Positions 3,798 through 14,945 of a stretch of 64,000 bases of DNA are shown here, piece after piece; the stretch's first letter is position 1, and each line of letters begins with the position of its first letter. Where the stretch lies: NCBI RefSeq assembly GCF_900182555.1, contig NZ_FXTH01000008.1, positions 1 through 64,000 on the forward strand, read 5' to 3'. Both the position numbers and the translations under genes were made by a program. The notes beneath the pieces were generated by a model. The model had not been told where the DNA came from, made no database searches, and saw nothing but the letters and a program-made list of their open reading frames with translations. Origin of the DNA: Fodinibius sediminis (GTDB lineage Bacteria; Bacteroidota; Rhodothermia; Balneolales; Balneolaceae).

Positions 3798-4331
3798 TTA
3801 TTTCAATACCTTAGAAACCCAGGCGCGCCTAACTTCATATTTTCGAGCAATTTCAGCTTGCGAATCTACCTTCCCAGAGGCTAAAAGTTGTTCAAATATG
3901 TCCCTCTGTTTTTCTTTATTTTGGCCCTTTTTCTTTGGTTTTCGGTCAACAGAATTAACCGTTTTGTATTTGTTCGCATTGTTCCAATTGGGGTACTTTT
4001 CGGCCTGTTTTTCGTAATGAATCAAATACTCAATTCCCTTTGGACCCCTGTCATCAACTCTGATAAGACATTTTACTGAAAAAATAGTTCGCAGGTCGCC
4101 AATTACCATGGAGCTCAGAAATTCAAGCACTGACAGGCGAGAGCCGGTCCGTCCTTTTTTATTTATGTCTACTCCGCTTCCAGTTCCAACTGTATGTTCC
4201 CAAATAGTTGATCTCAATATCTCTTTTGTTTTCATCATATAGCTGAGAATTACTGACTGGATAACAGTTTTCATCAGATCTTCTTTCCCTCTGCTGTCAG
4301 ACTCATCCCATCCGGTGATGGACACTTCCAT
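3798..4331 (-). CDS. Helix-turn-helix protein with recombinase-like C-terminal HTH, copy 2
   Basis: Paralogue of the gene at 764-1357. The two share their last 90 or so residues closely (YPNWNNANKYKTVNSVDRK, then a Lys-rich linker, then FEQLLASGKVDSQAEIARKY and RRAWVSKVLK) and are visibly similar at DNA level over about 300 bases, whereas their N-termini differ (here MEVSITGWDESDSRG). No recombinase catalytic residues are seen. Likely DNA-binding. Together with copy 1 in the same orientation it forms direct repeats bracketing the esterase/DUF998 segment. Confidence 0.6.
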   Translation of the reverse strand: MEVSITGWDESDSRGKEDLMKTVIQSVILSYMMKTKEILRSTIWEHTVGTGSGVDINKKGRTGSRLSVLEFLSSMVIGDLRTIFSVKCLIRVDDRGPKGIEYLIHYEKQAEKYPNWNNANKYKTVNSVDRKPKKKGQNKEKQRDIFEQLLASGKVDSQAEIARKYEVRRAWVSKVLK

Positions 4332-4988: not shown

Positions 4989-7900
4989 ATGAGAGACTCA
5001 ATTCGGTTTGATCACATTATAAACGCAGATATCAAATTAACAGAGTCACCGGTACAGAACCTGGCCGAATTGATATTTTACAACCTAAATCACCGGAGTG
5101 AAAAAGGAGAAATTATTCTGGGGCACGATAATAAAAAGCTCATAAGGATATCTCTGCATCGGTACCGCTATATTCATCTGCAATTGTACAAACAGTTCTC
5201 TGAGAACAACATTAAACAGGGGGATACAATGCTCCTTGCGGGCGTACCAGGCAACAACGAGATGATCCAGGCACTACTGTTTTCGGCATTGTCTTCCTAC
5301 GGTGTTCGTGTATTTATGCCAATGTTTATGGAGACGAACGAATTGGACGAATGGCTTTCTGTTTCTAATTGCCGGCTGGCAATTATTCCCATGACAGAAA
5401 TTCGCCGGTTAGATCATCATGTAAAGGCAAAAGCCGTTGTTGATGACATCATTGAAAAGGTTCAAGGGCACGGCATCAAGATCTGGGATACGTTCAGCTC
5501 TTTTAACATTTTGCACTGGTTGAACTGCGAGCTTCCCAGAGACAATTTCCTGTCAGATCCGCTTGTTGCAGCCATTGTCGAAAGAACGAACCTGAATCAG
5601 GAGGCTTTGATCATTACGACCTCGGGATCCACGGGACGGTCTAAGCTGGTTGTTTACCGTCAGGGCGCCTTTCTTAACAGCTGCCTGAGTTGGCAGATGG
5701 GTGGCATGCTGGAAAAAAGCAGGCTTGGCGGTCGGGGCTTTACGCCGCTTTTTACCCACACTATGGGGATTCGAACCTTCTTTAACGCGTTGTGGACGGG
5801 AAACCCCGCGTGTCTGATCAATACGGAGTGGTTCGAAGAGCAGCCGGAGATTGTGAGGTATTTTTTGTTAAAAATGAAACCGGAACATATTACCGGTGGT
5901 CCAGCCGCTTTTCAGCTCTTGCTTGAGATGACGAGAAATTTCCCAGAGCTGATTCCGGGTTTTCGAAACCATTTTAAAACATTGGTATCCAGCGGGGCCC
6001 CATTTGATTCCAGGCTGGTGCAAGAGCTTCAATCTATCTTTGAGCTGCCGATCCATAATGCACTGGGTACCACCGAGACGCAGCAGGTGACCAATACCAT
6101 GAGGGATGATCCGAATGAAGATCCCGTAACCGGCGGCCTTGGCGCCCCGCTGCCCGGTGTAAGCTTGGGCTTGAAACGGGGAGAAATTGGAAATACCTAC
6201 CGGTTGTTTATCAAGTCGCCCTTTGGATGTTCTGGAATCCTAAGCAAGGAGGGGATAACTCCACAAGATGAGTATTTCTATTCAGGGGATATCGTGGAAT
6301 TGAAAAAAGGGAAGCTTGTCTATGCCGGCCGTGATGGTAGAGACTTTTTCAAGGATGGATTCGGGGTGAAAATACCCATAAATAGTGTAGGTGAATATTA
6401 CCGGGAGCTTGATCCGATGATCTCCCATATCGAGTTTTACACTCTGCAGGGAGAACCGGGATTGGCAGCCTTGGTATTTGTTAGGACTTCTTCACTATTG
6501 CCGGGAAAGGTGAAAAACAAGGAGGTCATTACCAATATTAAAAGCCGGTTAGAAACAATTAATGACCAGTTGTTCAGGGAGTTAAATCCGCTTGAATTTC
6601 GCCACCGCTCGATACGGCGTTTTACTTTATTAAATGCGGAGCCCCCCAAAACACTAAAAGGCAATGTATCCCAGAAGCTGATACAACAAAAGCATGCTTC
6701 GATAATTCTCGCTTTACGAAAATATTTTGTCTCAGAAGACTGGATCCACACCGTCAAAACCCGCCAGCTGCAATTCGATACGTTTACCGAGCATGCCAAT
6801 TCGTACGTGGGGCGGTATCTCAGGGATCTCAAAATGGACTTGGTTTACCATCGGGCGGAGAAAGATTCCCTATTTGCATATAGGGAAGGAAAAGAAATTG
6901 AGATCCTCGATCTGGTTGGAGGATATGGGGGGAATCTGCTGGGGCATAATTATCCTGCATTGCGAAAGGCCTTGAACAAATTCCTGGATCGCGGGGCCAT
7001 TGCTATTGCAAACCAGGGAAGTATTCACAATCAGGTAGGTCGGCTGGCCGAGAAGTTGAATGATATGGCAGGCCGTGAAACAGGCCGCCATTTTCGTACG
7101 TTATTTGGATCAACGGGCGCAGAAGCCGTGGAAATGGCGCTTCATCACGCCTGCATGGAGTGGAGAGAGCGAATGCAGAAGATGGAGCGGCGCCAGCTTC
7201 AACAATTTGGCAGCCGGGATGCGGGAAACTTCCAGGAAATATGGGAGCAAAACAGAAAAAAAATTGAAACCACCCGCCTTGGCGTGATTACCCTGAAGTC
7301 TGCCTTTCACGGGCATTCAACCGGGGCTCGCTCCCTTATCGGAAACAAGGATCAACGCTACAAATTCAGCAATATGTTGACGCTGGATTCTTTGCCTGTT
7401 GATGATAGTAATCCTGGCTGGCGCGATCAAATAGACCAGCATATTCAGCAGGCTCATATAGAACTTACAATCTACAAGAAAAGAAAAGGTCGCATCCAGA
7501 CTACAACCCAACGAATATCCACAATTATTGCTGCAATTGCTGAGCCTATCGCGGGCGAAGGAGGAGTTCGGCAGGTAAACAGGGCGGTATTGCGCTACCT
7601 CTCCGGCTGCAAGTTTCCGCTCATTTTGGATGAAATACAGAGTGGGCTTGGGCGTTCCGGAGAATTTCTTGCCTCGAAAGGGATTGCCGGTGATTACTAC
7701 CTGCTGGGTAAATCGCTGGGTGGGGGACTGGAAAAAATTTCAGCCCTCCTGGTAGATAAAAATCGATATATAGATGAGTTTGGCAAGTATTATACCACCA
7801 CGTTCGGAAATGGAGAGCTTGCGGCACGGGTTGCCAGGGAAATGCTGTCGCTGGTTAGCGCTGTAGAAATTCCAAAACGTGCGCGCGAACGCGGAGTACG

Positions 7901-9410
7901 ACTAAAAAACCGTTTGCAGGCGGCTGTCAATCGATATCCTGATGTACTGGATGCGGTTGTTGGCAGAGGACTGATGCTCGGCATCCGTTTCAGGGATTTT
8001 TCAGCTCTCGGCAACATTTTTCTTCGGTTGATGTATCGCCAGGAATTCCTGGGATATGTTTGTGCATCCTACTTGCTGAACCGGCACTTCATCAGGGTAC
8101 TGCCTACTCTTTCTGCTCCCAATGTATTGCGAGTTGAACCATCGGTATTTATCACGGATGAAGAGATCAATCAACTGGGAACAGCCCTGGAAAGCCTGGC
8201 TGAAATCATCCAGCAACAGTCACTCTACGATCTGTTTCTCCATTTTATGGAGGATGATCCCTTTGACGACCAAAAAGGGTATGAGCCCCCGGGCGGTTTG
8301 ATCTATCCTGCCCTGGATCTACCGGAGGAGGGAGCTAAACAGGTCACATTCCTGGCCCATTTCACCAGTCCATCTGACGAACTGCGAATACTGGAGCCCT
8401 CCTTTGCCAAGGCCTCCAACACCGGCCTGCGACTATTGTTTAATCATCTGCAGGTATTAATGGAGATGAAGCCAGTGACACTCTTCAGCAAGAAACTGTT
8501 TGGAGGACGTATCCACTTCCAGATGAAAGTTATACCCCTGGGATCAGCTGAACTCGAACGAATGCACCGGGAGGGGAAAAAAAGAGAAATCATCGAAAAA
8601 ATTCAGCAAGGAGTGGATGAAGCTGCTATAGAGGGTTCCGAGTTCGTGGCCCTGGGAGGTTATACCTCCATTTTTACGAACAACGGCATGGCCCTGGTTG
8701 AGCCTTCATCGACAAAAATTATAACGGGTAATACGCTTACAGCGGCTTCAGGTATTCGGCGAGTGCTGCATGAGATTAAGACAAGTTCGGATGTTAATAA
8801 ACCGTGTACACTTGGAATAGTGGGGGCGGCCGGGAATATCGGACGAGCGATTACCGACTATATGTCGAAGCAGGAGCACTATTTCAATCGGATCAACTTG
8901 ATCGTCCATAATACGAAACAACAGGTATGGCTGGAGCAACAGTTACAAAAATCAACGGATAAATCGCCGTTAATTGAAATAGCATGCAGTGTGAATATGG
9001 AGCACCTGCGGCAGTGTGATGTTATAGTGATAACCACAAATGCCAACAAACCCCTTGTATTCCCACAACATATCAACCCAGATTATCCGGTCCTTATTTC
9101 TGACAATTCCGTGCCGAGTGCCCTTTCCCCGGAGGTCGAAAAAATGGATCGCGTCACAATGGTCCCCTTTTCTTCATACTTGAAACTGCCAATGGATCCG
9201 GAGTTCGTTATCAGTTCTCACACCCCCAGGGGAACGGCGTTCTGTTGTTCCGTAGAAGCCATGCTCTGCGGGTTGGAAGAGGTCAATGTGCCTCTTAGAG
9301 GAACATTGGAAGAATCCTCGATCGAATTAATGATGAAGCTTGCTGAAAAATGGGGATTGTTTGGTGAGTTTGGCACTCTAAGCAGTTTCAAGAGTAATGC
9401 ATATTTCTGA
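4989..9410 (+). CDS. Three-module enzyme: ANL acid-activating domain, class III aminotransferase, acyl-ACP-reductase-like domain
   Basis: Residues 1-570 form an ANL (AMP-ligase) domain: phosphate loop TTSGSTGRSK at 210-219, GTTETQ near 360, GD near 432, GRDGRDFFKDGFG near 450 and a C-terminal PKTLKGN near 553. Residues 600-1075 form a fold-type I class III aminotransferase: GSTGAEAVEMALHHA near 706, FHGHSTGARSL near 772, PLP-binding Asp881 (LDEIQSGLGRSG) and Schiff-base Lys908 (LLGKSLGGG). Residues 1115-1470 resemble cyanobacterial acyl-ACP reductase: ALGGYTSI, ITGNTLTA, nucleotide loop GAAGNIG at 1279-1285 and Cys1420 (FCCSVEAM), which aligns with that enzyme's acylated cysteine as I remember it. 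No phosphopantetheine carrier is visible. I infer a route acid to acyl adenylate or thioester to aldehyde to amine; substrate unknown. An AAAGG site precedes the ATG. Confidence 0.8.
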   Translation: MRDSIRFDHIINADIKLTESPVQNLAELIFYNLNHRSEKGEIILGHDNKKLIRISLHRYRYIHLQLYKQFSENNIKQGDTMLLAGVPGNNEMIQALLFSALSSYGVRVFMPMFMETNELDEWLSVSNCRLAIIPMTEIRRLDHHVKAKAVVDDIIEKVQGHGIKIWDTFSSFNILHWLNCELPRDNFLSDPLVAAIVERTNLNQEALIITTSGSTGRSKLVVYRQGAFLNSCLSWQMGGMLEKSRLGGRGFTPLFTHTMGIRTFFNALWTGNPACLINTEWFEEQPEIVRYFLLKMKPEHITGGPAAFQLLLEMTRNFPELIPGFRNHFKTLVSSGAPFDSRLVQELQSIFELPIHNALGTTETQQVTNTMRDDPNEDPVTGGLGAPLPGVSLGLKRGEIGNTYRLFIKSPFGCSGILSKEGITPQDEYFYSGDIVELKKGKLVYAGRDGRDFFKDGFGVKIPINSVGEYYRELDPMISHIEFYTLQGEPGLAALVFVRTSSLLPGKVKNKEVITNIKSRLETINDQLFRELNPLEFRHRSIRRFTLLNAEPPKTLKGNVSQKLIQQKHASIILALRKYFVSEDWIHTVKTRQLQFDTFTEHANSYVGRYLRDLKMDLVYHRAEKDSLFAYREGKEIEILDLVGGYGGNLLGHNYPALRKALNKFLDRGAIAIANQGSIHNQVGRLAEKLNDMAGRETGRHFRTLFGSTGAEAVEMALHHACMEWRERMQKMERRQLQQFGSRDAGNFQEIWEQNRKKIETTRLGVITLKSAFHGHSTGARSLIGNKDQRYKFSNMLTLDSLPVDDSNPGWRDQIDQHIQQAHIELTIYKKRKGRIQTTTQRISTIIAAIAEPIAGEGGVRQVNRAVLRYLSGCKFPLILDEIQSGLGRSGEFLASKGIAGDYYLLGKSLGGGLEKISALLVDKNRYIDEFGKYYTTTFGNGELAARVAREMLSLVSAVEIPKRARERGVRLKNRLQAAVNRYPDVLDAVVGRGLMLGIRFRDFSALGNIFLRLMYRQEFLGYVCASYLLNRHFIRVLPTLSAPNVLRVEPSVFITDEEINQLGTALESLAEIIQQQSLYDLFLHFMEDDPFDDQKGYEPPGGLIYPALDLPEEGAKQVTFLAHFTSPSDELRILEPSFAKASNTGLRLLFNHLQVLMEMKPVTLFSKKLFGGRIHFQMKVIPLGSAELERMHREGKKREIIEKIQQGVDEAAIEGSEFVALGGYTSIFTNNGMALVEPSSTKIITGNTLTAASGIRRVLHEIKTSSDVNKPCTLGIVGAAGNIGRAITDYMSKQEHYFNRINLIVHNTKQQVWLEQQLQKSTDKSPLIEIACSVNMEHLRQCDVIVITTNANKPLVFPQHINPDYPVLISDNSVPSALSPEVEKMDRVTMVPFSSYLKLPMDPEFVISSHTPRGTAFCCSVEAMLCGLEEVNVPLRGTLEESSIELMMKLAEKWGLFGEFGTLSSFKSNAYF

Positions 9411-9584
9411 ATTTTTATATGATGTCGGTGCCTCCCGCGATAATCCGGCGATGAAGTTAAAAGTATTGACCGTTCATCAGCTTGTCGAGTGCTGTGCGTA
9501 GCCGGCACCGGGGAGGCATGGCTGGATATTATCTGTGCGGATACAGTTTTAGAGGAATCCAGAATTCTGTGATAACTATCAAAT

Positions 9585-10478
9585 ATGAGAGAGATGGCAA
9601 AACGAATATTATTCCGTACCAAGACAGAGCCTCAAGATACAGATCTGAGCAGGTACGGTCCCTGCTCACGTCGGATTATCGATCGATATATTTCGCTGCC
9701 CAATGGGATTGATCTGCGTGTCGTATCATTTTATCCCCTGAAGAGTGTCCATCCACCGGTGGTGATGATTACTGGACTGGCGTCAGTTATGGAGAGCTCA
9801 AAGGAGATTACCCGAGCGCTTACCCGTGATTTCACTGTCCATTATCTGGAAACCCGCGAAAAAAAAACATCGAGAACAAATGGGAAGCGGAATTTCGAAA
9901 TCGAGGCGATAGGAGAAGACATTGCCCTGGCAATTTCAGAGCTGGGGCTTGACAACAGGGGATACATCCTTTTGGGCGCTTCCCTTGGTGCCACAGCTAT
10001 AGTAGATTCATACCGGTTATTGGCTGACAGACCTCTTGCCCTGTTCATGCTAGAGCCCAATGCCTCATTTAAAATTCCGCGCTGGAGTATTCCGTTAATC
10101 TATCTCTCCTCTTATACATACGGAATCATTAAACCGGTAGCCAAATACTACTTAAAAAATTATCGTATCAATATTCAGGAGGATTACGAGATGTATGAAA
10201 TTTCATCTCGTGCACTCGATGCTGCTGATCCATACAAGCTGAAGAGGGCAGTACTTTCGTTGAGTCGTTATAAAATCTGGGAGCGCCTCGAATCGGTGGA
10301 TGCCCCGACACTTATTGTGGGGGCTTCAAAAGACCATTTTCACAACCATGAGGAGATGCTCGAAATGGCCGATCAATTGAAAGACTGCACTTTCATTGAT
10401 CTGGAAAACCATCAGCGAACGCACAGCGCGGAGTTTGCAGCAATCGTCAAAGATTTCCTCAAAGAACTGCTTAATTAG
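9585..10478 (+). CDS. Alpha/beta hydrolase
   Basis: A 297-residue alpha/beta hydrolase with a nucleophile elbow GASLGA, a putative acid in GASKDHFH and a putative catalytic His in ENHQRTHS near the C-terminus. There is no signal peptide. A second ATG at 9594 is better placed after a GA-rich stretch and may be the real start. It lies 174 bases after the three-module enzyme on the same strand, and is the only neighbour that could act with it, for example as an acyl-thioesterase or amidase. That pairing is inference from position; the family is too broad to name a substrate. Confidence 0.75.
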   Translation: MREMAKRILFRTKTEPQDTDLSRYGPCSRRIIDRYISLPNGIDLRVVSFYPLKSVHPPVVMITGLASVMESSKEITRALTRDFTVHYLETREKKTSRTNGKRNFEIEAIGEDIALAISELGLDNRGYILLGASLGATAIVDSYRLLADRPLALFMLEPNASFKIPRWSIPLIYLSSYTYGIIKPVAKYYLKNYRINIQEDYEMYEISSRALDAADPYKLKRAVLSLSRYKIWERLESVDAPTLIVGASKDHFHNHEEMLEMADQLKDCTFIDLENHQRTHSAEFAAIVKDFLKELLN

Positions 10479-10857: not shown

Positions 10858-12081
10858 ATGTTAGAGGCAGCAGGTATTACACTCAGAGATTCAATTGAGG
10901 CTATTCTCGTTATTTTTGTAATGTTAGCCTATCTAAAGCGAAGCGGACAGGAAAATCGAAAGCGCTATATTTACGGCGGTGCTTCTATAGCAGTGATCAT
11001 TAGTATAGCAGCGGGTATAATTTTGTCTCACATTGGAGTTAATCCGGAAAATGAATGGGTGGAGGGAATGCTGTATTTTGCTTCAGCGATTCTGGTCGGT
11101 TCCCTGACCATCTGGATGATTCGTCACTCAAGTGATCTGAAGTCCGATATAGAAGAAAAAATGCAGAAGAGTTCGAGCGGTATGATGTTGGGCTTTATTG
11201 CATTTGTCATGGTCCTGAGAGAGGGGGCGGAAATTGTTGTTTTTATGCAAAGCCTGCTTTTGGCTGGCAATACGCCGGTGCAGAATTTTCTAGGAGGGGT
11301 AATGGGAATGGTATTATCGATCATTTTTGGCTTTGTTTTTCTTTGGGGCACGACAAAGATCCACATGGGTCGTTTTTTCAAAGTTACATCCGTGATATTG
11401 GCAATACTGGTTTTGCAGTTGACGGCCAACGGATTTCATGAACTTTTTGAAATCGGGGTGCTTCCCTCCACGGAAATGGTGATGCTGGGTATTGGATTTC
11501 TTGCCAAAGATTCTACTGGTACGTTAATTATTGCACTGATGCTATTCGCCCTGATTCTGCTGGTGATGTACGATCTGATTAAATCGCATCCCCCCGAGTT
11601 TTCAGGGTTGAAACCTACCGACCGGCGCAAAAAGCGATACCGTTTTTACAAGGAAAAATATGCAAAGATGTCGCTTTCAGGCCTGTTGATTTTTCTGGCG
11701 GTCCCCCTTTTCTCTACGACAGTAGCCACTTCAAGCCTGGTGGTCCCCGAACCGGCATCCGTTACACCGGTAAATGGAGTAATCACCATTGATATTCCGC
11801 AGGAAGATGGTTTATACAAGTATGAATATGAAGGCATTCGACTCTTGGTTACTCGAAAAGAGGGGGAGGTTAAAGCGGCACTGGACCGCTGCTATATATG
11901 TCCGCCAACCGGTTACGGATACAATGGTGAGCAATTGGTATGCCAGACCTGTTCAGCGCCCATCGATCCGTCTACCATAGGTCATGCCGGCGGTTGTAAC
12001 CCGAAGGTTATTGACTACGAAACCGGTTCGGACACCATCAGCATTTCTGCAGATGAACTAACAACACACTGGGGGCAATAG
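10858..12081 (+). CDS. FTR1-family iron permease with C-terminal DUF2318 domain
   Basis: The N-terminal 270 residues hold about seven membrane helices with the two iron-permease motifs: Arg10-x3-Glu14 (RDSIE) in helix 1 and Arg121-x3-Glu125 (REGAE) in helix 4. Residues 300-407 form a periplasmic-type DUF2318 domain with paired cysteines Cys345/Cys348 (CYIC), Cys362/Cys365 (CQTC) and Cys380. The same fused layout is known from the FTR1 of the Campylobacter Cj1658-Cj1663 and related FetMP iron systems, where FTR1 works with a P19 protein and an FtsX-type ABC transporter. Here the ABC genes follow directly but no P19 or thioredoxin-like gene is present. An AAGG site precedes the ATG. Expected role: ferrous/ferric iron import across the inner membrane. 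Confidence 0.85.
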   Translation: MLEAAGITLRDSIEAILVIFVMLAYLKRSGQENRKRYIYGGASIAVIISIAAGIILSHIGVNPENEWVEGMLYFASAILVGSLTIWMIRHSSDLKSDIEEKMQKSSSGMMLGFIAFVMVLREGAEIVVFMQSLLLAGNTPVQNFLGGVMGMVLSIIFGFVFLWGTTKIHMGRFFKVTSVILAILVLQLTANGFHELFEIGVLPSTEMVMLGIGFLAKDSTGTLIIALMLFALILLVMYDLIKSHPPEFSGLKPTDRRKKRYRFYKEKYAKMSLSGLLIFLAVPLFSTTVATSSLVVPEPASVTPVNGVITIDIPQEDGLYKYEYEGIRLLVTRKEGEVKAALDRCYICPPTGYGYNGEQLVCQTCSAPIDPSTIGHAGGCNPKVIDYETGSDTISISADELTTHWGQ

Positions 12082-13293
12082 ATGATTTCATTTATATTGC
12101 GCCTGGCAGCCCGCGCGGTGCGCATCAAGAATCTCCGTTTTTTATCATTAACGCTAACCATGGTGGCTGCTTCTTCTCTGCTGGTTATTCTGTCATCGGT
12201 TTATATGAATGCCGAGTCAAAGTTGGCGATGGATATAAGCGGGGTGCCGAATATGGTTATTCAAAATGGTGGAGATTTGCTCGATGATAACATACTGAAA
12301 GTACAGGATATAAAAGAGCTGAAAACGAAACGCCATTTCTGGCGAAATAATGTGTTGAACGCCATGCCCATTCTCGAAGCCGAGGCCGTCATCGATGGGG
12401 AAACGGTACATGTGGCCGGTACCTGGTTTCGCAAAGAGGTATCAATAGACGAAGAGAGATACAACTTTGGATTATTGCATTTTGACGGCTGGAAGTATGA
12501 GGGGGTGTCTTCATCTGACGCCAATAGCGTGATTCTGGGAGCCAATATCGATATTGACGATGCAATCGCATTATCAATACATGGCAGGAAAGCAGAATAC
12601 ATGGTAGCCGGAATGATAGAAACCGGTACCTACTGGGATGATTATATTTTTATGGATATCGAGAAACTCAAGGAACTGGCCGAAAGGAGCAGTATAGATA
12701 AAATCCTTGTCAGTGCATTGATTAAGCCTCAGGATGAATTATCGCGGAAGGCAGAACAGTATGGCGTGAATACGCTGAATTCAGAGGAGCTGGAAAAATG
12801 GTCGTGTTCACCTTATGCCGGTTCAATTGCGTATTCAGTCGGGCAGGTTCTTCCGGGTAATAATGTTCGCATACTTCGCAGGATAACCGAAGTACAGGGA
12901 GGGGTCATCAAGGCATCTACAGGCATTTTCTTTGGCCTGTTTGTTTTGACCCTGGCATCATCCCTCATTGCCATCATCAGCGCAGAAAAAATGTATGTAA
13001 CCTCACATCTCGAGGATTTTGGAATTATGGCTGCGATCGGCGGATCGAGTAAAAAAATAATGCTGCAGCTTCTGGTCGAGTTGGGAATGGCCTCGTTCAT
13101 TTCCGCTGCTATTACCTACATGCTTAGCGCACTGACACTGAATTATGTGAGTCACGTTATTTTTAATATCGAGTTTTCATCGCACCAGCTTTTGATTGTC
13201 ATGTCATTGGCAATTCCATTTTTAATCTCTTTTTCAGCGCTGCTGTTTGCCAGGAAGGGATTGACAAACAATACCACTGAACTTTTGAGATAG
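12082..13293 (+). CDS. FtsX/MacB-type ABC transporter permease of the FTR1 system
   Basis: A 403-residue protein with one N-terminal membrane segment, a large extracytoplasmic domain (about 45-270) and three C-terminal helices beginning IFFGLFVLTLASSLIAII, the FtsX fold. The cytoplasmic loop MAAIGGSSKKIMLQLL is the typical coupling segment of these permeases. It starts at the base following the FTR1 stop codon, so the two are probably cotranslated. In the Campylobacter system two such permeases and one ATPase lie next to FTR1; they are thought to power a step in iron handling rather than form the pore. Confidence 0.8.
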   Translation: MISFILRLAARAVRIKNLRFLSLTLTMVAASSLLVILSSVYMNAESKLAMDISGVPNMVIQNGGDLLDDNILKVQDIKELKTKRHFWRNNVLNAMPILEAEAVIDGETVHVAGTWFRKEVSIDEERYNFGLLHFDGWKYEGVSSSDANSVILGANIDIDDAIALSIHGRKAEYMVAGMIETGTYWDDYIFMDIEKLKELAERSSIDKILVSALIKPQDELSRKAEQYGVNTLNSEELEKWSCSPYAGSIAYSVGQVLPGNNVRILRRITEVQGGVIKASTGIFFGLFVLTLASSLIAIISAEKMYVTSHLEDFGIMAAIGGSSKKIMLQLLVELGMASFISAAITYMLSALTLNYVSHVIFNIEFSSHQLLIVMSLAIPFLISFSALLFARKGLTNNTTELLR

Positions 13294-13297
13294 TAGC

Positions 13298-14260
13298 ATG
13301 TTATTGAACATCGTAACCAAATCAATAAAGTCGCGCCGAGACCTGTATTTTCCCATGATTATGGCCGTTGTTATAACGTTGAGCCTGATAGGCGCCGCTG
13401 AAGTGGTTGGAGACGAGTTTAACCGGGTTATCGATCGGGAAATGAGCAAATACGGCATAAACGTGATTCTCCGCCTCGAAGAAGGGGAACAGGCTACCGC
13501 CGGCGTCCCGGTTCAGCTGAAAACAGCTTCCGTGAACGGGGAGCAAAAAGAACTTGCGGTAACTCCCGTTTTTTCATTAATGGAGATCAATCCGGCATGG
13601 ATTATTTTGGGACAGAGCGATTACGTTGTCGGTCAGCTTGTAGCCGATGAACTGGGAATCGAACAGGGGGATGCCCTTACCATTGATGGAGCGCTTATAC
13701 AGCCGTCCATACTCAAAAGCGGCACCCGGTTCGATAGCTATATTTTTAGCAATGGAACGCCTCAGAATGCTTCATTAGCGTTAATCAGGACTGATAATCC
13801 TGGAATGTATGAAGGCAGAAATGCCATAATTCTCAAGGAGATGGTACAAACCAGATATCGGTTTTTGGGCAGTATAGAATCGCTGATGTTGACCATTGCA
13901 ATGATCTCGGTCCTGGCTTCGTTCGCTACGGTTATTAATCTGGCCAGGCTCGATGCGGGGAAAAGAAGAAAAGAGTTGGGGATTTTTAAATCGCTGGGAG
14001 GGTCGGGAAGCCGAATACTACTGCTAATAAGTTCTGAATATTTGATTCTGTCCCTGGTTTCGATAATCGCGGGGGTGGCCGGCACCCTGCTGTTAAGCTG
14101 GGCAATTCTGCAGTACGTTGCTGACTATGCACCGGTTATAGGGCTCACAACTATTTTTTATATCAGCGGTGTAACTTTTATTGCGTTCGGTTTTGCCGGT
14201 TTAACGTATATGATAGAATCTCACAATCACAATGTTGTCCATGAATTGCGTGGCGTATAA
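13298..14260 (+). CDS. Second FtsX-type ABC permease of the FTR1 system
   Basis: Same architecture as the preceding gene but shorter (320 residues): N-terminal helix (YFPMIMAVVITLSLIGA), an extracytoplasmic domain of about 150 residues, then three helices with the coupling loop KRRKELGIFKSLGGSGSRIL. The pair would form a heterodimeric transmembrane part. The gene starts 4 bases after its partner stops. Confidence 0.8.
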   Translation: MLLNIVTKSIKSRRDLYFPMIMAVVITLSLIGAAEVVGDEFNRVIDREMSKYGINVILRLEEGEQATAGVPVQLKTASVNGEQKELAVTPVFSLMEINPAWIILGQSDYVVGQLVADELGIEQGDALTIDGALIQPSILKSGTRFDSYIFSNGTPQNASLALIRTDNPGMYEGRNAIILKEMVQTRYRFLGSIESLMLTIAMISVLASFATVINLARLDAGKRRKELGIFKSLGGSGSRILLLISSEYLILSLVSIIAGVAGTLLLSWAILQYVADYAPVIGLTTIFYISGVTFIAFGFAGLTYMIESHNHNVVHELRGV

Positions 14261-14273
14261 AAAATATATCACT

Positions 14274-14945
14274 ATGATATCGACTGTTGATCTTTGTAAG
14301 GATTACGGAAGCGTAAAGGCTCTCGACAATATTTCCTTTTCAGTGGGAAGAGGACGAATAATGAGTATTATGGGGCCGTCGGGAAGTGGAAAAACCACCC
14401 TTATTAACTTGATCGCCGGATTGGATCAGTCAACCAGCGGCCGAATTAGCATAGGGGGGACTGATATTACGGATTTCGATAATGATGAGAAGGCCCGGTT
14501 TCGCCTGGAACACCTGGGTATTATTTTCCAGCAATTTCATCTGGTTGATTATCTGACAGCTCTGGATAATGTGATGCTGGCACAGTATTTCCACAGCATG
14601 CCTGACAGGGAAGATGCCATGCAATCGTTAAAGATGGTTGGGCTCGGCGACCGCGCGGATCACCTGCCAGGCGAATTAAGCGGTGGGGAGAAGCAGCGAG
14701 TAGCCATCGCCAGGGCCATCACCAACGACCCTGAGCTCATTCTGGCGGATGAACCAACTGGAAATCTCGATGAGGATAATGAGCGTATGGTCATGGATAT
14801 CTTCAAGGAGTTAAAAGTGGAAGGCAAAACTATTATTCTCGTAACCCATAATCATTCGCTTGGGGAACAATGTGATGAAGTTATCAGGTTGAAACATGGC
14901 AGAGTTGATAACCACCGTATTAGAGAACTTGAAATGGTTAAGTAG
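14274..14945 (+). CDS. ABC transporter ATP-binding protein of the FTR1 system
   Basis: A LolD/MacB-type nucleotide-binding protein with Walker A GPSGSGKTT, signature LSGGEKQRVAIARA, Walker B LILADEPTGNLDE and switch His in VTHNH. The start at 14274 (MISTVDLCKDYG) is chosen over an ATG at 14232, because the family sequence begins here and 14232 lies inside the preceding permease. The 13-base gap to that permease fits one operon. It should drive the two FtsX permeases at 12082-14260. Confidence 0.85.
   Translation: MISTVDLCKDYGSVKALDNISFSVGRGRIMSIMGPSGSGKTTLINLIAGLDQSTSGRISIGGTDITDFDNDEKARFRLEHLGIIFQQFHLVDYLTALDNVMLAQYFHSMPDREDAMQSLKMVGLGDRADHLPGELSGGEKQRVAIARAITNDPELILADEPTGNLDEDNERMVMDIFKELKVEGKTIILVTHNHSLGEQCDEVIRLKHGRVDNHRIRELEMVK

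Follow-up and report, generated by a model that had tools for sequence, protein, structure and literature searches.

Near the start of contig NZ_FXTH01000008.1 of Fodinibius sediminis (assembly GCF_900182555.1; Balneolaceae) lies a gene whose product, a single chain of 1473 residues, we read as an enzyme that turns fatty acids into primary amines, akin to the two-protein TamA/TamH system but lacking its carrier. We put the probability of this reading at about 0.62. The stretch analysed, 'the window' in what follows, comprises the first 64,000 nucleotides of the contig. Three modules follow one another in the protein, hereafter the fusion: an adenylate-forming ANL domain, a class III aminotransferase (AT), and a domain that resembles acyl-acyl carrier protein (ACP) reductase (AAR). 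The reaction steps, the route of acyl transfer and the chain length are inferred. The ANL domain would activate a carboxylic acid, probably a long-chain one, with ATP to give an acyl-adenylate. The acyl group would then reach Cys1420 of the reductase domain—via coenzyme A (CoA) or straight from the adenylate, for the chain contains no carrier domain and none was seen near the gene—and NAD(P)H would reduce the acyl-enzyme to an aldehyde, which the fused AT, dependent on pyridoxal phosphate (PLP), would turn into the primary amine.

The module order is that given by Pfam and NCBIfam. Pfam matches AMP-binding (PF00501) at residues 96–393 (E 6e-20), Aminotran_3 at 630–1068 (4.6e-43) and a Shikimate_DH-type NAD domain at 1273–1391 (1.5e-5), and matches in NCBIfam and the PDB agree with the chain, modules and order described earlier from the letters of the DNA (below, the sequence-only reading). 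The same order recurs in other genomes, so the layout is not due to chance. The segment 4989–10478 given in that reading spans two genes, the fusion and an alpha/beta hydrolase. Neither a Pfam scan nor an ACP profile finds a phosphopantetheine-binding (PP-binding) carrier match within the chain. In the fusion and in the six relatives that cover the region, some 40–50 residues (about 45 in the window) separate the A10 region of the ANL domain from the start of the AT, too short a linker to hold a carrier domain.

The catalytic residues of the second and third modules are in place. Asp881, which we expect to hold the pyridine nitrogen of PLP, Lys908, Gly1279, Gly1282 and Cys1420 are among the columns invariant over 29 aligned AT–reductase proteins; the third glycine of the GAAGNIG motif is kept in the fusion, and its column varies among the 29. 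Against the PDB, phmmer matches the AT to CrmG and PigE, and the C-terminus to the N-terminal half of PigE and to cyanobacterial AAR. An AlphaFold model of residues 591–1473 has a predicted local distance difference test score (pLDDT) of 86 and a predicted template modelling score (pTM) of 0.84; the AT half of this model fits onto CrmG with Z 39.9, 2.6 Å over 479 residues and TM 0.85 of the target. Glutamate-1-semialdehyde mutase, the identity that the sequence-only reading had thought fatal to its scheme, was considered for the AT and rejected: the module ranks closest to PigE and CrmG, and HemL is not among the matches listed (the best 25 of 78, 60 of 88 and 60 of 191).

The rows of the structure search cover only the AT half (model residues 1–491), so the assignment of the reductase rests on sequence profiles. 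Taken alone, the C-terminal part matches the N-terminal, reductase half of the NCBIfam PigE model at 3.3e-14, and the acyl-ACP reductase model TIGR04058 over model positions 66–322 of 339 at 3.8e-12. Both matches fall well short of the model cut-offs, and the TIGR04058 score of 46.2 bits, set against a cut-off of 449.7, marks a relative of AAR, not an equivalog. A profile of the domain with seven relatives matches the AAR structures 6jzq, 6jzu and 6jzz at 9.6e-39 to 1.7e-36; two of the seven are PigE, so its match to PigE is by construction. Resemblance to acyl-ACP reductase, a check set beforehand, is thereby upheld. Two further PDB entries, 9e4s and 9e4x ('Amino acid adenylation domain protein'), weakly match the same profile, and our literature search found no paper on them. 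Cys1420, invariant in two alignments, occupies the position of the PigE cysteine and of its counterparts in further AT–reductase proteins. By analogy with AAR, the equivalent residue of PigE and TamH is the one proposed to be acylated (PMC8341465, PMC9594044). The lysine equivalent to Lys908 in TamH is K340 (PMC9594044).

Acid-to-amine chemistry of this kind is already known. TamA, an ANL–ACP protein, and TamH together convert a C12 acid to the C12 amine in vitro with NADH (PMC9594044), which bears out the acid–aldehyde–amine logic of the sequence-only reading and shows that its pathway has a precedent. Like the fusion, PtTamA and PtTamH of tambjamine YP1 biosynthesis in Pseudoalteromonas tunicata comprise an ANL domain, a class III AT and an AAR-like domain, with the AT ahead of the reductase. 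They differ in being two proteins with an ACP fused to the ANL domain, whereas the window encodes one chain, with no carrier and with a divergent N-terminal ANL domain. KecF of koreenceine biosynthesis in Pseudomonas is an AT–reductase didomain proposed to reduce and aminate an ACP-bound chain; it differs in its proposed substrate, the product of a type II polyketide synthase, and in being described with the AT and reductase only (PMC6498172). The fusion shares the hallmarks of TamH and KecF: an AT followed by an AAR-like domain, with K908, GAAGNIG and C1420 all kept. PigE of prodigiosin biosynthesis (PDB 4ppm; PMC8341465), the best NCBIfam match, likewise carries both modules and the aligned cysteine in one chain, but in the reverse order, reductase–AT, without an ANL domain, and it branches separately in the tree of the reductase; the fusion scores 213.6 bits against the PigE equivalog NF053554, whose cut-off is 850.

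Other systems resemble the fusion in part. Cyanobacterial AAR shares the landmarks of the reductase domain (GGYTSI, TGNT, GxxGxxG and the cysteine) and is free-standing. Carboxylic acid reductase (CAR), to which the ANL part has a weak PDB match, also activates and reduces acids in one chain. Its architecture is A-T-R, with a carrier domain, a reductase of another type and no aminotransferase, and CAR was rejected as an identity for the fusion, in which Pfam found neither the CAR carrier nor the CAR reductase. The LuxC/LuxE fatty acid reductase offers a precedent for moving an acyl group off an adenylate and onto cysteines with no phosphopantetheine carrier involved; it has another reductase and no aminotransferase. 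What is new is the carrier-less single chain: none with these three modules was found described, among open PMC papers only, where absence is weak evidence. To that extent the statement of the sequence-only reading that it knew no such enzyme survives for the architecture; the pathway has a precedent, and KecF and PigE share two of the modules.

The search for the same architecture elsewhere, suggested by that reading, turned up an ANL domain joined to an AT in the same order in six further genomes: four with a complete protein, one with it split and one with it cut off. (G numbers below denote genomes, and L numbers loci.) One, G582, was among 14 matching genomes (E ≤ 1e-50) of 343 from the phylum of L018 (Planctomycetaceae), its protein aligned over residues 197–1430. 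In the phylum of L064 (Deltaproteobacteria; tree label Myxococcota) 9 of 377 genomes matched, and five carry the window-type ANL–AT. In G924, G1079 and G974 the reductase completes the protein; in G1055 the protein is divided between two contig ends; in G962 the contig breaks off just where the reductase begins, and that module is not seen. Domain content was judged by Pfam for the G582 protein and by blastp to the window domains for the other five; the four complete relatives are 1368, 1369, 1390 and 1355 residues long (likely starts chosen).

In a tree of the AT–AAR part (28 chosen rows, the incomplete fused proteins L142, L145 and L146 left out) the fusion and the four complete relatives form one clade with support of 100/100; the tree needs one label change, and the protein nearest to the fusion, that of G974, is 36% identical to it. 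In a tree of the reductase, which includes no cyanobacterial AAR, the fusion falls inside a 17-row didomain group (100/99), apart from stand-alone AAR-like proteins. Leisingera encodes AT–AAR–ANL, a different order, in one protein of 1395 residues that stands elsewhere in the AT–AAR tree; thus ANL domains have been joined at least twice.

AT–AAR didomains as such are no rarity. Searches of plasmids and genomes found them in Rhodobacterales, Photobacterium, Paraburkholderia, Nocardia, other actinomycetes, cyanobacteria, planctomycetes and more, and many of these loci have an ANL gene nearby. A scan with the reductase alignment, based on one peptide pattern and not exhaustive, gave at least 80 loci, all but 16 of which were examined; a genome-wide scan with the window protein as query gave no confirmed match. 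Variants abound. A Limnobacter metagenome-assembled genome (MAG; L067 5947–10801) holds a frame-broken ANL–ACP–AT, its ACP judged by a DSI motif, followed by AAR in another frame, a TamA–TamH-like fusion. Nocardia AT–AAR proteins are mostly 1946–2089 residues long; in L016 (8369–14209), the only Nocardia locus scanned, AT–AAR is followed by PPDK_N, PEP-utilizer and a thymidylate-kinase-like end, a layout that looks to us as if a TamH-like protein had been fused to a PigC/TamQ-like ligase. Stand-alone AAR-like proteins of about 355 residues occur in Armatimonadota, Bacillota and an archaeal MAG (L041, L043, L053, L061, L069, L071 and others).

The guess of a long-chain substrate draws support from the company that the relatives keep. 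Directly upstream of the fused gene, on the same strand, five of the six other family loci have a membrane FA_desaturase gene (Pfam E 3e-25 to 2e-35). Its end meets or runs into the start of the fused gene in G582, G924, G974 and G1055, and in G962 a gap of 159 nt separates the two; the tambjamine locus has the dehydrogenase TamT in place of the desaturase. A profile of the five desaturases finds nothing at 50 other AT–AAR loci or at three PigE loci. The 50 include L010 and L067, in which the modules are joined to ANL in other arrangements, and leave out the partial L065 and eight loci with short flanks (L115–L119, L136, L138, L139), none of which has the desaturase. This association suggests long-chain acids. 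In G1079 a penicillin-amidase-family gene, 19 nt upstream of the fusion, replaces the desaturase, and a similar gene lies beyond the desaturase of G924; these genes near two fused enzymes (L143 13015–15663, minus strand; L144 4236–6893, plus strand) perhaps encode acylases that act on an amide of the amine product.

The acid might instead be aromatic, dicarboxylic or polyketide, an idea prompted by CrmG, the best structural match of the AT, which belongs to caerulomycin biosynthesis, and by Leisingera, where the AT–AAR–ANL protein is encoded near a 4-hydroxybenzoate monooxygenase and pabB. The desaturases beside five of six related loci and the separate branch occupied by the Leisingera protein make this improbable. 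The Leisingera plasmid cluster (L010 1–19767) also encodes an MMPL transporter and a lipoprotein-sorting protein.

A number of observations count against a single-chain fatty-acid-to-amine enzyme, and several concern the ANL domain. The module itself is recognizable: besides the AMP-binding match, the A3, A5, A7 and A8 motifs TSGSTGRSK, GTTETQ, YSGD and GR are present. The sequence-only reading was right to that degree in calling it an acid-activating domain, and on less secure ground as to activity, because the domain is very divergent and the A10 catalytic lysine, present in all six fused relatives and in 10 of 10 other aligned ANLs, is replaced by Asn559. Profile comparison did not align the C-terminal subdomain, so placement of A10 rests on MAFFT alignments. 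In three of the relatives, L143, L144 and L147, Arg or Ala takes the place of the P-loop lysine that the fusion keeps, which leaves ANL activity unsure across the family. Structure prediction, proposed at the outset and informative for the AT–reductase part, gave an uninformative pLDDT of 36 for the ANL part folded from a single sequence.

Conceivably, then, the ANL domain does not adenylate at all, and is a relic or an aid to transfer in an enzyme that, in the manner of TamH or KecF, uses acyl-CoA or acyl-ACP made by another. Asn559 would fit, as would the identity of only 15–20% to ten ANLs from AT–reductase and PigE loci, and TamH takes ACP thioesters (PMC9594044), as KecF is proposed to do (PMC6498172). 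The other motifs checked are all present, however, and the closest ANL found suggests another explanation. Of 392 genomes of the phylum of G582 searched with the window ANL alone, two matched, G582 and G512; the G512 protein, which stands alone at 577 residues and is 37–38% identical to the window domain, has Thr at the A10 position and shares with it a lysine two residues earlier (Lys557 in the fusion). The A10 lysine may thus have shifted rather than been lost. Either it has moved, to judge by the alignments, or adenylation would be weak in the window copy, and we regard a non-adenylating ANL domain as unlikely. The G512 gene directly precedes a DUF3419 gene (E 1e-41; L123 8620–11660), of a BtaA-like (betaine lipid) family.

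A second set of adverse points concerns the carrier. TamH gave no amine from C12-CoA and used the ACP-bound form (PMC9594044), so that a CoA route is not assured. Two PP-binding proteins are encoded on contigs C2 and C3 of the host genome (the window is on C8), along with one ACPS-type transferase, and a carrier could act in trans. The chemistry, in other words, might be right, with a free ACP shuttling between the ANL domain and the reductase. ACP-like frames (profile, E ≤ 1e-3) occur at 36 of the 50 other AT–AAR loci, at 21 of 21 from Nocardia and 15 of 29 others, but in none of the eight stretches from the seven fusion genomes, window included; among the short-flank loci only L138 has one. 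That comparison is blunted by 14 of the 50 likewise having none; with so uneven a split between Nocardia and the rest, the loci are not independent, and absence of an ACP is not rare. The stretches differ in length, those of G962 and G1055 being cut by contig ends, and with this profile the AcpP of the host itself reaches no better than E 3.7e-4. The five seeds of the profile (L011, L013–L015, L067) comprise two loci from among the 36 together with the three PigE loci, where matches are by construction. The ANL domain of TamA, most like fatty acyl-AMP ligases (FAALs), did not load E. coli ACP (PMC5939613). A free carrier seems to us rather unlikely, if the least so of the alternatives.

Finally, the window gene is isolated. 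The desaturase of its relatives is absent from the 64 kb, by profile and histidine-box scan. The host genome is the only one of 128 from the order, and of 395 sampled from the phylum, in which the fusion turned up (none at E ≤ 1e-40 in the other 127 and 394), and no close relative appeared at E ≤ 1e-30 in 96 other genomes of the host's own group; in each genome, these searches score no more than the first few candidates. Its branch is long—2.78 in the reductase tree, where the program warns that placement is unsure, and 1.56 in the AT–AAR tree—and the near-conserved Gly-Gly at 1395–1396 is Ser-Ser, at a spot that is also variable in relatives. Such rarity, length of branch and loss of consensus residues are what a recent acquisition in decay, without present function, might show. 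Yet the 4.4 kb frame is intact and the catalytic residues of the AT and reductase are kept, and decay strikes us as very improbable.

Features of the fusion and of the adjoining hydrolase gene, in window coordinates
Feature	Position	Strand	Details and basis
Three-module fusion gene	4989..9410	+	Single ATG-start open frame, 1473 aa; Pfam, NCBIfam and PDB matches
ANL (adenylate-forming) domain	4989..6698	+	About residues 1–570; Pfam AMP-binding 96–393; motifs
Asn559 at the A10 catalytic-lysine position	6663..6665	+	MAFFT alignment; Lys in six relatives
Class III PLP aminotransferase domain	6774..8219	+	About residues 596–1077; CrmG the nearest solved structure
Asp881	7629..7631	+	Invariant column, 29 aligned AT–reductase proteins
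Lys908, expected PLP Schiff-base lysine	7710..7712	+	Invariant column, 29 aligned AT–reductase proteins
Acyl-ACP-reductase-like (thioester reductase) domain	8316..9407	+	About residues 1110–1473; sequence profiles
GAAGNIG dinucleotide-binding motif	8823..8843	+	Residues 1279–1285; alignment
Cys1420	9246..9248	+	Invariant in two alignments; matches the PigE cysteine
Alpha/beta hydrolase, 297 aa	9585..10478	+	174 nt downstream of the fusion; Abhydrolase_1 2.7e-5, just under the cut-off

The hydrolase gene downstream, in which the sequence-only reading saw a possible partner, was dropped from consideration: nothing in the fused loci (E ≤ 1e-5) or in L007–L095 (E ≤ 1e-4) corresponds to it. At E ≤ 1e-8 it also goes unmatched in the 57 other genomes sampled from the host family, and the FTR1 protein farther downstream was not found at E ≤ 1e-30 in 11 congeners; the region therefore looks accessory. 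The FTR1 protein belongs to an iron-uptake-like set that adjoins the fusion (10858–14945, plus strand): an FTR1–FtrD-like fusion, two FtsX-type permeases and a LolD-type ATPase. Upstream, two small open reading frames on the minus strand (764–1357 and 3798–4331), 62% identical over 112 residues and without a Pfam match, flank a beta-lactamase-like gene and seem to be copies of a single gene, mobile or repeated.

Turning a carboxylic acid into an amine normally takes several enzymes, or a carrier that must be primed. A single carrier-less chain, if that is what the window encodes, would be a simpler biocatalyst than TamA and TamH, and would be a test of whether reductases of the AAR type can receive their substrate without an ACP. 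The gene itself is rare in bacteria, and its fused relatives usually adjoin a fatty-acid desaturase gene. Fatty amines, perhaps unsaturated ones, may thus be made by some myxococcal and planctomycete bacteria. More tentatively still, these proteins may form a dispersed, carrier-free family of single-chain enzymes that aminate fatty acids, passing the acyl group directly or through CoA, channelling the aldehyde between modules, and, with the desaturase, making unsaturated long-chain amines or amine lipids as yet undescribed in these bacteria.

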